A stretch of 64,000 nucleotides of DNA from Chitinophaga pinensis (GCA_945870425.1 CAMBSD010000001.1:124001-188000), one strand, 5' to 3'. Shown: positions 34,916-48,491, counted from the first letter of the stretch. Numbers and translations are program-made. The notes: generated by a model not told the origin, from the letters alone.

Positions 34916-34942
34916 CGCACTCGCTAGCGTCCCGCTAGTGAG
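34916..34942 (-). repeat. 27-base dispersed repeat, copy 1
   Basis: Matches the sequence at 48283-48309 on the opposite strand at 25 of 27 positions. The core on the minus strand is AGCGGGACGCTAGCGAGTGCG, which contains an internal near-palindrome. A weaker relative lies near 45292-45315. Confidence 0.75.
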
Positions 34943-34975
34943 TGTATTGATAAGCCTCTGGCTGATTTTACAATA

Positions 34976-44675: not shown

Positions 44676-45044
44676 GGGGCTGACCGGTATTGACGGGATG
44701 TGCAAGGGTTATGTTAGCATGTCGAGCATTGGGTAATTGGCTCGTAAATATCAACGCTCAAAATTTTATCTGGCGAGTCTAACTTCGCTATGGCTGCTTA
44801 ATCTGGGATTAAGCAAATGCCATTGTCTCGTAACATGTTAAGTTTTGTTTCGTGTTACATCAGAGGCATCATCAAAACCAAACCTTTGTTAGGTATGCTT
44901 ATGGCCTTATAGAGTATAAATAAGATATAAATAAGTTTGGTACGAAGGGCAACCTGACTTATTTAGAAAATTAATGCCTTTATAAACATGTAGAAGGCAT
45001 AATGTTTCCATCTCCGGACGAGGGTTCGAATCCCTCCAGCTCCA
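44676..45044 (+). ncRNA. ssrA: tmRNA (trans-translation RNA)
   Basis: Starts with GGGGCTGACCGGTATTGACG, the conserved tmRNA 5' end, whose first seven bases pair with CAGCTCC at 45037-45043 (one G-U). The T-arm GAGGG/TTCGAAT/CCCTC is intact just before it. The discriminator is A45044; CCA is not encoded and must be added. The tag reading frame is 44772-44801: GESNFAMAA then TAA, in the style of Bacteroidota tags ending in Ala-Ala for ClpXP recognition. About 369 bases, normal. It works with SmpB to rescue stalled ribosomes. Two further copies of its 3' end lie downstream. Confidence 0.97.
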
Positions 45045-45049
45045 CAAAA
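45029..45049 (+). repeat. ssrA 3'-end core (att-like), copy A within the tmRNA
   Basis: The 21-base stretch AATCCCTCCAGCTCCACAAAA, spanning the tmRNA T-loop, acceptor stem and first bases beyond, recurs at 45195 and 48173. In copy C the match extends five to seven bases further left across GGGTTC with one mismatch. Confidence 0.9.
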
Positions 45050-45086
45050 TAATGCCCCAGCCGTAGGTTGGGGTATTATTATTTTC
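45048..45086 (+). terminator. Terminator of tmRNA with an alternative hairpin partner
   Basis: Twelve-base stem between AATAATGCCCCA (45048-45059) and TGGGGTATTATT (45069-45080; one G-T pair), followed by ATTTTC. The right arm can instead pair, over 45075-45086, with GAAAATAATAAT at 45122-45133, so two mutually exclusive structures are possible downstream of ssrA. Confidence 0.8.
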
Positions 45087-45194
45087 AATGCATATGCAAG
45101 CAAAGCTTGCAAAGCTGTGCAGAAAATAATAATACATCCTTTGCGTATGCAAAGAACATTTTTTGTAAGGTTCCCCCTAATGGGAAAAAGGATT

Positions 45195-45249
45195 AATCCC
45201 TCCAGCTCCACAAAAATGTAAAAGCTTTTCAGAATTTCTGTAAGGCTTT
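45195..45249 (+). repeat. ssrA 3'-end repeat, copy B
   Basis: 55 bases identical to 48173-48227: tmRNA T-loop/acceptor end, then AAAATGTAAAAGC and a terminator stem. The part to the left of the repeat does not continue as tmRNA, so this is a 3' fragment, not a gene. Confidence 0.92.
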
Positions 45250-45262
45250 TTTATCTTTTTTT
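45217..45262 (+). terminator. Terminator in copy B
   Basis: Imperfect stem AAAAGCTTTTCAGAA/TTCTGTAAGGCTTTT followed by TTTATCTTTTTTT. Probably the native ssrA terminator, retained with the duplicated 3' end. Confidence 0.75.
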
Positions 45263-45361
45263 GACAAAAAAGAGGCGTTAAGATTGTCTTACTAACGGGA
45301 AGCTAGCTAATGCGAGAGGAATTAGTTATAAAATAGAGCCCAAAACATGATTAAAAAATAC

Positions 45362-46936
45362 CTAGTTGAATCTTACCTTTAAAAAATAGTCATAAACACT
45401 CATTTTGTTATAGCCATTTCCGAGTCTATCTCTATTATAATCTTTTGCCCAAGTTTCATCTGCTTTGAAAAAGTCGTTCATAGCTTTCTCTTTATCTCCA
45501 AGATATAAGTATATTTTTTCTCTATAAATGTAATATGAAGATTCTTCAGGCGAAATACTAATTGCTTTGGAAATATCTAACAAAGCCGATTCAACATCTT
45601 TTTGTCTAAGTTTCAAGAAATGTCTGTTTACATAACTTTCTTCGACAAGTGGATTAGTTTCGATAGCTTTATCAAAATAAGATGTTGCATCACTATAGTT
45701 ATCATTTACATATGACAATACACCCAAAGAATTTAGGGCAATGATATCTCCAGGGTCATTATTTAGGACGTCTAAAAATCTTGATTGTGCTTCAGTTTGA
45801 TCATTTTCACCTAAAGCCGCTAAAGCATATGATGTTTGATAGTTATCTATACTGAAATTTGTGAAATTATTACTTTCGGTCAGTATTATTTCGTTCCATT
45901 GTGAAGATCTAGAATCATTTCTTTCTGATACAGAAATTCTCTTTAGTTCAGATGTTATCTTTGGCAAATAAACTTTATAGTGCAATGTAGTGGCAAGTGG
46001 CACGTTTGTGGAATGACTAACATCCTCACCTACAGTTGAAGACAGAATATAATAATTTTGATTAGTTTCTAAATCTCTAATATGAAATCCATTGTCACTT
46101 TGATTCAGGTTAAGCCAAAATCCCCATTTATCATCAGTAGATGGAGTCATATTCATTCTAGTATAGGAGAAATAAAGAGTAGTAAAGTCATCTCCGAACT
46201 CAATTGCATTAAGTATTGAAAAAGGGTCATTATCTGCTTTTTTATTAACAACAATGAATTTATCTCTTTTCGTAAACTTATCATTCTTCTTACTAAATTC
46301 ATCGCTTTTAATACTCCCAAGAATTTCTTCATTGAGGTAAACTCCGAAATTTAAATTTTGTCCATCCCTTCTCTGGTATGTTGCTATTGCTATTACCTCG
46401 CCATGCTCATTCATTACTGGAGCACCGCTGCTTCCAGGAGATATTGGCGCAGTGAATTGTATAACTTTTCCGTGCTTTTTATCTGATCTAACTGCCGAAA
46501 TAATCCCTTCTGAAAAGCTACATTCTAGAGCTCTTGGATTACTAATACAATAAGTCCTGTCTGCTTGAGAAGGTTCATCATTTGATAATTTAAGGGTTTC
46601 AAATTTCTTATCATCTTCAGATTTTATTTTAAACTTGATTATATCTTTGTCCTCATCGGCAAATAAAACTTTATCAATTTCATATTTTGCACTATCTGGA
46701 GTGATTATAATTGCTTTAGTTGAGCCGTCTAATACATGAAAATTAGTTAAACCAACTCCACTTTCCTCTATGAAAAATCCTGATCCAGATCCGCTTGGCG
46801 TTCCATACTCATCGAATGTGTAAATTATGAACGTAGCGGCTTTATTTTCGATGATTCGACTAGCATCTTTGTTACATGAGGCAATAAATATTAACAATGT
46901 AAGAATTAGGGTTGAATGAAAAAATTTGTTGAGCAT
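45362..46936 (-). CDS. Trypsin-like protease lipoprotein with TPR repeats (island cargo)
   Basis: A 524-residue predicted lipoprotein: signal peptide with lipobox FIASC (Cys about 21), a trypsin-2 domain (about 40-210) with the catalytic triad His in LTNFHVLDG, Asp in ADEDKDIIKF and Ser in APISPGSSGAPV, a middle region with no identified domain (about 210-370), and TPR repeats (about 385-500; e.g. ALNSLGVLSYVNDNYSDA). ATG 46936 is preferred to the upstream in-frame start 47020 because it places a proper signal peptide first. It would act in the periplasm or at the outer membrane. It lies in a 3 kb unit flanked by ssrA 3'-end repeats and is divergent to the next gene. Substrate unknown. Confidence 0.85.
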   Translation of the reverse strand: MLNKFFHSTLILTLLIFIASCNKDASRIIENKAATFIIYTFDEYGTPSGSGSGFFIEESGVGLTNFHVLDGSTKAIIITPDSAKYEIDKVLFADEDKDIIKFKIKSEDDKKFETLKLSNDEPSQADRTYCISNPRALECSFSEGIISAVRSDKKHGKVIQFTAPISPGSSGAPVMNEHGEVIAIATYQRRDGQNLNFGVYLNEEILGSIKSDEFSKKNDKFTKRDKFIVVNKKADNDPFSILNAIEFGDDFTTLYFSYTRMNMTPSTDDKWGFWLNLNQSDNGFHIRDLETNQNYYILSSTVGEDVSHSTNVPLATTLHYKVYLPKITSELKRISVSERNDSRSSQWNEIILTESNNFTNFSIDNYQTSYALAALGENDQTEAQSRFLDVLNNDPGDIIALNSLGVLSYVNDNYSDATSYFDKAIETNPLVEESYVNRHFLKLRQKDVESALLDISKAISISPEESSYYIYREKIYLYLGDKEKAMNDFFKADETWAKDYNRDRLGNGYNKMSVYDYFLKVRFN

Positions 46937-47002
46937 AATTTTGTAATTTAAGGTTAAATTTGAAGCCGAAAATATAAAAATTCGATTTAAATTAAAAGTT
47001 AA

Positions 47003-48010
47003 GTGAAAAAAAGAATTCAAATAATTGACTTTATAAGAGGTATTGCAGTTATCGTGATGATAATTGCAAACTTCTCTGCATATTTTATTAACTCACCTAA
47101 TACTATATTTTTTCGAGTAGTTTATTCATTTGCAGCACCTATGTTTCTTTTTATTTCTGGTTATTCTTACTTTATATCTTCAATTGGTATAACTAATCCA
47201 TTTAATAAGATCAAATATGGGATGTTTATTATTTTTGCAGCTGTTTTCATAGATTTATTTATCTGGCGGATTTCTCCATTATGTACATTCGATGTATTAC
47301 ATATTATTGGCTTTGGCTTTATTTTCAACGGATTAACATTTAAATTGAATTCCATTTTCAGGATATTTTTAACTTTATTAATATTATTGGTTCCTCTAAT
47401 TTTTAGAAATGAGATTATATATCGATTTCAGCTTAATGAATTAGATTTAACCAATATAATGGAGTTAAATTGGTATAATTACATCAATCTAAATCCTTTC
47501 AAGCGATTTCTCTTTGATGGATGGTTTCCTCTTTTTCCTTGGCTTGGTATTATTCTCTTTGGATATGTATTTGCAGAAAATAAGTTCAAAATTACCCAAT
47601 ATATCAAAACAATATACTTAATAGGATTATTAGGTTTAATATCAGGTATTTTATTAGGAATAAATAATATTTCTTACTCTGACAGAAATGGTTATTTAGA
47701 GTTATTTTATCCGCTTAATTCTTATTTTTTATTAGCGACTATTAGCTTATGCACCCTAATTGGATTACTAATTTCAAGTTGGCAATCCCAATTGTTTGGG
47801 AAATATAACTTTATTATCAAACTAGGTAAAAATAGTTTATTTATTTATATACTCCATTGTCTTATAATCGTATTAATTGTTCCTAAAGTAGATGAAATTA
47901 ATGAATTGTTCTTTGGGTTGTTTTCTTTATTTACTCTGATAGCAATTTATTTTATGTTAATATTTATTGATTATTTTAAAAGTAAATTTCACTTATCGAA
48001 ATCTAGCTAA
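47003..48010 (+). CDS. HGSNAT/DUF1624-like membrane acyltransferase (island cargo)
   Basis: A polytopic membrane protein of 335 residues with about nine or ten helices. It opens with KKRIQIIDFIRGIAVIVMII, the conserved start of heparan-alpha-glucosaminide N-acetyltransferase-like proteins, followed by PMFLFISGYSYFISSIG and CTFDVLHIIGFGFIFNG. Members transfer acyl groups across the membrane to sugars or other acceptors; the acceptor here is unknown. The GTG start is 66 bases from the divergent protease gene. It is very AT-rich (about 20-30% G+C in lines I counted), unlike the flanking genes, which suggests transfer. Confidence 0.8.
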   Translation: MKKRIQIIDFIRGIAVIVMIIANFSAYFINSPNTIFFRVVYSFAAPMFLFISGYSYFISSIGITNPFNKIKYGMFIIFAAVFIDLFIWRISPLCTFDVLHIIGFGFIFNGLTFKLNSIFRIFLTLLILLVPLIFRNEIIYRFQLNELDLTNIMELNWYNYINLNPFKRFLFDGWFPLFPWLGIILFGYVFAENKFKITQYIKTIYLIGLLGLISGILLGINNISYSDRNGYLELFYPLNSYFLLATISLCTLIGLLISSWQSQLFGKYNFIIKLGKNSLFIYILHCLIIVLIVPKVDEINELFFGLFSLFTLIAIYFMLIFIDYFKSKFHLSKSS

Positions 48011-48172
48011 ATAAATCAAAAACATTTTAGCAATAATAAGACATAGGTAATCAAATTATTTTAAGCTAGGTGACCAACCGGGAAAAATTCTCAAGTATCG
48101 AATAAGCCTTAAAATTTGAGGTGAAATAGCGTTGATTTGATTTGCTGCCAATACCCGCAGGTCAGGGGTTCA

Positions 48173-48227
48173 AATCCCTCCAGCTCCACAAAAATGTAAA
48201 AGCTTTTCAGAATTTCTGTAAGGCTTT
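48173..48227 (+). repeat. ssrA 3'-end repeat, copy C
   Basis: Identical over 55 bases to copy B; to its left GGGTTC (48166-48171) also matches the tmRNA T-arm with one mismatch, so 28 positions (45022-45049 against 48166-48193) agree at 27. It bounds the AT-rich unit on the right. Confidence 0.92.
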
Positions 48228-48240: not shown

Positions 48241-48282
48241 GTACTTATATTTATAAGAAAAAGCCAAACGCTAATCCATAAA

Positions 48283-48309
48283 CTCATTAGCGGGACGATA
48301 GCGAGTGCG
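48283..48309 (+). repeat. 27-base dispersed repeat, copy 2
   Basis: Inverse of the element at 34916-34942 with two mismatches; core CTCATTAGCGGGACGATAGC then GAGTGCG. Confidence 0.75.
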
Positions 48310-48491
48310 GAGTATACAAATGTGCTTTGACCTTTGTAGGTCAATGCGCTAAACTTGTCTCAAGCAAAGTTCGTTTGGCCATGCTAGTTCATAATCCATG
48401 ACTTCACAGAAAAAATAGACACTAATAATTAGTTTCAAGGTTTTTTGGTAAAAATTTCTTTCTTCGCATAATAAAACAAAAAATAAATTTC

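Follow-up and report, generated by a model that had tools for sequence, protein, structure and literature searches.

The 3' ends of tRNA genes are classic landing sites of islands and phages, and in Escherichia coli the tyrT gene is followed by distal repeats (rtT RNA), ∼178-bp units that each carry ∼19 nt of the tRNA 3' end. Here we analyzed a 64,000-nucleotide stretch of Chitinophaga pinensis DNA (GCA_945870425.1, CAMBSD010000001.1:124001-188000; hereafter, the window), taken from a 2.96-Mb assembly of 43 contigs, in which the transfer-messenger RNA (tmRNA) gene ssrA is followed by two further copies of its own 3' end. The three copies, A, B, and C, delimit a short A-B unit and a 3-kb B-C unit. 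We think that the locus probably has two layers: A-B, a miniature element of tRNA and tmRNA tails that spreads in trans, and B-C, a separate insertion devoid of a recombinase. The A-B tail family is the more interesting part of the locus. If many Bacteroidota tRNAs carry a folded tail that duplicates a landing site, then attachment (att) sites, the ends of tRNA transcription, and island borders read differently, and if our reading is true, a structured element of bacteria would be moving among different tRNA genes, which is rarely seen.

The features of ssrA and of the A-B unit are listed below in window coordinates; R1 and R2 are covariance models and A1 and A3 are alignments, all described further on.

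44676-45045, plus strand: ssrA (tmRNA), with the tag GESNFAMAA (ARAGORN; Rfam RF00023, 138.8 bits).
45029-45045, plus strand: copy A of the repeated core, the last 17 nt of ssrA, AATCCCTCCAGCTCCAC.
45046-45194, plus strand: body of the A-B unit, 149 bp, a noncoding structured element (202 bits with R1 and 151 bits with R2 for 45029-45211).
45044-45055, plus strand: 5' arm of the outer stem, starting in the final bases of the ssrA tail (RNAalifold consensus of A1 mapped to the window).
45056-45072, plus strand: hairpin 1, terminator-like, CCCCAGCCGTAGGTTGGGG then TATTATTATTTT (RNAalifold consensus).
45073-45135, plus strand: hairpin 2, a long stem, GTATTATTATTTTC/GAAAATAATAATAC, with an inner CAAGCAAAGCTTG hairpin (inverted repeat; compensatory changes in A1 and A3).
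45139-45154, plus strand: hairpin 3, CTTTGCGTATGCAAAG (RNAalifold consensus).
45156-45166, plus strand: 3' arm of the outer stem (RNAalifold consensus).
45182-45200, plus strand: T-arm-like hairpin at the distal end, GGGAAAAAGGATTAATCCC; tail copy B begins with the 3' strand of this hairpin (RNAalifold consensus).
45195-45249, plus strand: copy B, the 17-nt tail core (45195-45211) plus a duplicate of the resident terminator; left edge of B-C.
48173-48227, plus strand: copy C, the core plus the resident terminator; its T-arm-like part starts at 48166, and it matches the single copy of the congener G001 exactly.

A preliminary description of this DNA had reported that the tmRNA 3' end is repeated at B and C, and we indeed found direct repeats at 45022-45049 (A), 45188-45215 (B), and 48166-48193 (C). 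Copy B is 79% identical to A over 28 nt, with complete identity from 45195 onward; the T-arm is missing its 5' strand there (GGATT in place of GGGTTCG). The T-arm of C is almost complete (GGGTTCAAATCCC) and matches that of A at 27 of 28 positions (96%). Between B and C, identity is 94% over 65 nt and the first 55 nt are identical. Thus, the 55-base identity that includes a terminator and the 27-of-28 match of C to the T-arm, both previously noted, were confirmed.

The A-B body is bracketed by two copies of the 17-nt tmRNA tail, with a period of ∼165 bases, and consists of an outer stem around three hairpins, followed by the T-arm-like terminal hairpin. In tRNA numbering, the tail presumably starts in the T-loop, near position 58, and ends at position 74. 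As the 3' strand of the terminal hairpin is a second copy of these last 17 nt, the tRNA gene stays intact. The folding z of the window unit was -5.7, and 73 of 74 elements had a sense-strand z below -3. In A1, a MAFFT alignment of eight units, the 58 pairs of the outer stem and hairpins were formed in 95.9% of cells, and covariation was 0.145, compared with 0.086 in shuffled controls and at most 0.049 in slid ones. In A3, two-sided changes occurred in 52 of the 58 pairs and covariation was 0.661 versus 0.165 after shuffling, a score that leans because the 18 rows were fitted to the covariance model and one of them is a reverse-strand row; nonetheless, the slid controls did not exceed 0.097. 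G-U pairs outnumbered A-C pairs (225 versus 76 cells, a count that leans somewhat through the same model fit), which assigns the fold to the sense strand of the tRNA, whether in RNA or in single-stranded DNA. The unit is also pseudo-palindromic, as seen from reverse-strand matches of the model, and no autonomous parent transposon was present among the loci read. A coding origin was rejected, since the units share no open reading frame (ORF); the only ORFs seen were spurious antisense ones over tRNA-Ser.

These properties bring in the main alternative, namely a structured RNA tail that serves the host by acting on tRNA transcripts (in their termination, 3' processing, or stability). Such a tail would be old, inherited for the most part vertically, and homogenized within genomes by gene conversion, and the duplicated tail would be part of a functional hairpin. 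The very strong covariation in A3, the excess of G-U pairs on the tRNA sense strand, and the terminator-like hairpin 1 all speak for a host RNA. We nevertheless consider it rather unlikely.

R1 had matches in 20 of 395 class genomes, and these lay where genes for tRNA-Ala, -Arg, -Ser, -His, and -Gln and for tmRNA have their 3' ends. R2, which was built from 18 divergent matches, gave hits in at least 41 of 395 genomes across the Bacteroidota, including 12 from other classes; this phylum-wide search scored six candidates per genome, so its counts are lower bounds. A deeper search, with 150 candidates scored, recovered 12, 15, and 9 distinct copies in genomes G353, G631, and G424, respectively, of which 32 of 36 start at a tRNA 3' end, and the occupied tRNAs were those for Ser, Pro, Arg, Leu, Val, Met, Phe, Glu, Gln, Asp, and Lys. 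Over all genomes, the distance to the expected end of a tRNA or tmRNA was at most 20 nt for 74 of 97 elements. An artefact of a model describing merely a tRNA plus a terminator is disfavored: the Val, Phe, and Met matches in G631 and G424 begin past the tail (offset 16), body-only matches exist, and most genomes with tRNAs and terminators yield none. The presence of the unit at 12 different tRNA genes of G353 would suit a host RNA, whereas its patchiness among genomes and its absence from ssrA in most genera of the family would not. In the sister genus, a unit follows ssrA in G006 and two follow it in tandem in G028, while in G018 and G077 the unit lies beyond other elements at ssrA and in G076 behind an element end resembling that of G018. 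Downstream of ssrA in G034 (L039:1063-1203), we found the first 98 bp of the unit only, followed by unrelated sequence resembling a repeat near the G076 unit; this piece is a broken copy.

Known RNA families did not account for the unit, as no Rfam family matches it: tmRNA alone reached the gathering score at the window locus, and only tRNA and tmRNA did so across 18 loci. The A-B unit and the ssrA tail with its terminator had no match among viral contigs, phages, and plasmids, and the open-access literature yielded no description of such tRNA-tail units. A-B belongs to an apparently undescribed structured tRNA-tail family. It had been taken for a mere remnant, a view that we do not retain, since A-B is complete and the family to which it belongs is conserved, structured, specific to tRNA ends, and phylum-wide. 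Likewise, we rejected the idea that a single integrative element left A-B behind through deletion, because the same fold occurs at many tRNAs.

The distal end of the unit repeats the last 17 nt of the very tRNA that it follows. This match was exact in 10 of 74 elements and reached at least 15 of 17 positions in 14 of 74, compared with 0.2% for the tails of other tRNA types, and the own-tail copies stand ∼165 nt apart. Orthologous tRNA-Ala(ggc) loci compared across two genera carried the unit in G018 only, with AATCCGATATCCTCCAC on both sides, and showed a plain terminator, i.e., an empty site, in G006, G076, G034, and the window's own genome, G000. Comparison of the filled and empty sites thus reveals a target-site duplication, with 17 of 17 positions matching on both sides. 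The body of the G018 tRNA-Ala unit was 86% identical to the ssrA-linked copy of G018 and 77% identical to that of G006. Furthermore, the Arg(tcg) and Arg(acg) units of G052 have nearly identical bodies, and their terminal hairpins each fit the T-stem of their own tRNA. Similarity scores were 25.4 for copies at different tRNAs of one genome, 16.5 for copies that share a tRNA but come from different families, and 14.2 for background pairs, which is the pattern of within-lineage dispersal, with gene conversion as an alternative. A host RNA fits poorly with tRNA-Ala sites filled in one species and empty in its sister, with tandem arrays, and with exact 17-nt duplications of the target's own tail.

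Tandem copies were found in G028 and G223. In G018, one full unit precedes three shorter repeats of 117 bp without hairpin 1 (C9:56403-56922; L070:8402-8922), which suggests internal tandem duplication as a further route of array growth. At the tRNA-Ala loci of G080, G081, G028, and G077 (L210, L212, L215, and L220), we noticed a second, unrelated tail repeat of ∼87 bp, which ends in a T-arm mimic with a palindrome in the loop (GGTTCTCCCGATTAATCGGGAC..CTCCAC). Arrays of full and partial units, as well as this other repeat type at tRNA-Ala in sister species, are what one would expect if the units were in-situ tandem repeats of tRNA 3' ends, comparable to those at E. coli tyrT and produced by slippage or unequal crossing-over, without a mobile element. 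Local duplication cannot, however, place the same fold at many tRNAs across a phylum, and single copies at new tRNAs are closely related to a copy elsewhere in the same genome; we therefore regard this explanation as improbable.

As far as genome comparison can tell, the architecture, the covariation, the exact placement, and the lineage-specific copies at new tRNAs with the target's own tail on both sides are established features of the family. The scheme that we propose is that A-B would be a miniature, noncoding, structured element occupying tRNA and tmRNA 3' ends in Bacteroidota, that copies would disperse within a lineage by inserting in trans at the conserved T-arm, and that the enzyme for insertion would be encoded outside the element. 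B-C is a distinct insertion of 3 kb that has no recombinase of its own and sits at the distal tail copy.

Larger elements use the same sites. In the sister genus, ssrA is a hotspot for tyrosine- and serine-recombinase elements, with serine recombinase elements at ssrA in both G018 and G076; in G001, the element downstream of ssrA is a different one and encodes a tyrosine recombinase (Arm-DNA-bind_5, Phage_int_SAM_5, and Phage_integrase). This G001 element (L036:703-2147) also carries, beside the recombinase, a gene for a HigB-like toxin and a partner with HTH and M78-peptidase domains (best PADLOC match, PD-Lambda-2_B). In G018, a serine recombinase gene and a Dnd-like island separate ssrA from the unit: on contig C9, at ∼21 to 56 kb (L041 and L069), a large serine recombinase whose reading frame enters the ssrA 3' end heads a ∼35-kb stretch with DndC, DndD/PbeC, and DndH/DndE-like genes, and the unit is displaced to the far end. 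Displaced copies are likewise found in G076 and G077. Five tRNA-less unit copies adjoin tyrosine recombinase genes, and these copies were most likely displaced when an integrative element entered the tRNA-proximal copy, which parallels the situation in G018. Such neighbors show common use of a site and not movement of the unit by those enzymes. The hotspot at ssrA, with its tyrosine recombinase element in G001 and serine recombinases in G018 and G076, together with a tail copy that is a typical T-loop-to-3'-end identity block, would also suit the earlier idea that integrative elements left both A-B and B-C behind. This idea is contradicted for A-B and seems to us very improbable, as independent leftovers are not expected to hold one covarying fold at many tRNAs. 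Of the earlier mobile-remnant view, what stands is that B-C is a real insertion and that ssrA is a hotspot in the sister genus; what falls is A-B as a remnant.

Several points weigh against a mobile A-B element. Its spread is read from sequences alone and not from living cells, and the strong conservation of the structure could reflect a host function. Most unit-bearing tRNAs of G424 also bear the unit in G631, which implies that the distribution within that genus is largely vertical and agrees with a host RNA. In most copies other than those with a good own-tail match, the distal tail is degenerate, with only about TAATCC left. R1 and R2 include tail columns and are thereby biased toward tRNA ends, though several matches begin past the tail. 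No recombinase or transposase was consistently linked to the unit, and among the loci read, none recurred as a mobilizer beside tRNA-adjacent copies. Finally, both tails are the target's own, while a simple crossover should leave a foreign tail on one side, so target duplication or later conversion fits better than a tyrosine recombinase. The mover can only be guessed at. A tyrosine recombinase like those of integrative elements using the same sites is a tentative first guess, a strand-transfer enzyme making a 17-bp target duplication is a more doubtful one, and nuclease-driven homing with repair is more doubtful still. The last is a candidate on account of small single-domain GIY-YIG genes at tRNA 3' ends, one in the tRNA-Ser unit array of G223, where it takes up one of the units (L153:2182-2445), and a second directly after tRNA-Ala in G000 (L217:1612-1857).

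The B-C unit comprises the following features.

45195-48172, no strand assigned: B-C unit, an insertion of 2978 bp at the distal tail copy, which the congener G001 lacks.
45362-46936, minus strand: cargo gene for a lipoprotein with a trypsin-like protease domain and TPR (PF13365, 1.8e-24; PF00515, 2.6e-8).
47003-48010, plus strand: cargo gene for a membrane acyltransferase, HGSNAT_cat/Acyl_transf_3 (PF07786, 4.4e-20; PF01757, 8.4e-11).

The preliminary description had proposed B-C as an inserted, AT-rich unit without an integrase and had called for a comparison of relatives' ssrA loci for empty or A-B-only forms. G001 provides the A-B-only form. Its contig C289 contains an A core with a terminator, an A-B stretch (95% identical), one merged copy, and then the C-side flank, a clean empty site for B-C; the contig starts within the core, and its connection to the G001 ssrA is inferred. 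The merged copy is identical to C at 66 of 66 positions. Thus, C is the resident terminator and B is the copy brought by the insertion, which explains why the identity of B and C extends into the terminator. Direct repeats of the tmRNA 3' end lie at both borders, and the GC content is ∼0.25 to 0.34, compared with ∼0.34 to 0.40 in nearby flanks, in line with the proposed AT-rich composition. Neither of the two genes of B-C encodes a recombinase, and profile searches of the whole source genome gave three matches to the tyrosine recombinase family PF00589, all on other contigs, and none to the serine recombinase family PF07508. Judged from the alignment with G001, B-C did insert at a site derived from ssrA and is genuine but ordinary. 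Its proteins had no relatives among viral contigs, and relatives of the protease in the 395 class genomes were only distant (at most ∼41% identity), so B-C is not traceable to another genome. That it is the stripped end of a larger island is plausible. We discarded the cargo as a defense pair, because the similarity of the protease to RT-Protease_XI is confined to the protease part of that system, and PADLOC gave nothing for the acyltransferase. Beyond copy C, a short dispersed repeat (GCTAATCC..CTCATTAGCGGGACGATAGCGAGTGCGGAG) is present at 48258-48317, with at least four further copies in the genome, one of them at 34916-34963 of the window.

Taken broadly, the A-B units may form a phylum-wide class of structured, noncoding mobile elements that insert at the T-arm and pass from one tRNA gene to another by duplicating the 17-nt tail of their target, leaving tandem att sites then used by larger elements, B-C included; we put this forward tentatively. 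Among known systems, some casposons (Cas1 solo transposons) insert at tRNA 3' ends, leaving the gene unaltered and producing direct target duplications (PMC4046053). A target duplication of this kind fits the A-B pattern, with both tails the target's own, better than a simple crossover does. However, casposons are multigene elements with Cas1 and PolB, whereas the A-B unit is 149 bp long, noncoding, and encodes neither (a Cas1 helper was not searched for). With islands that enter tRNA and tmRNA genes by means of tyrosine recombinases, the unit has the target and the T-loop-to-3'-end identity block in common, and sites are shared; it differs in encoding nothing and in having the target's own tail on both flanks. 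Like miniature inverted-repeat transposable elements (MITEs) and the REP and ERIC palindromic repeats, A-B units are short, noncoding, hairpin-rich, multicopy, and apparently nonautonomous. Unlike these, they target only tRNA and tmRNA 3' ends, with a 17-nt tail duplication; neither a parent transposase nor classical terminal inverted repeats were identified among the loci read. As regards integron attC sites, which an IntI integrase recombines as a folded strand, the analysis bears on the fold of the unit. The E. coli tyrT repeats resemble A-B units in following a tRNA gene and carrying its 3' end. The RtT model of Rfam found no match up to an E value of 1 in the window locus or in 12 related loci, and while tyrT is a single gammaproteobacterial locus, the A-B family is phylum-wide, occupies many tRNAs, and has a fold of its own.

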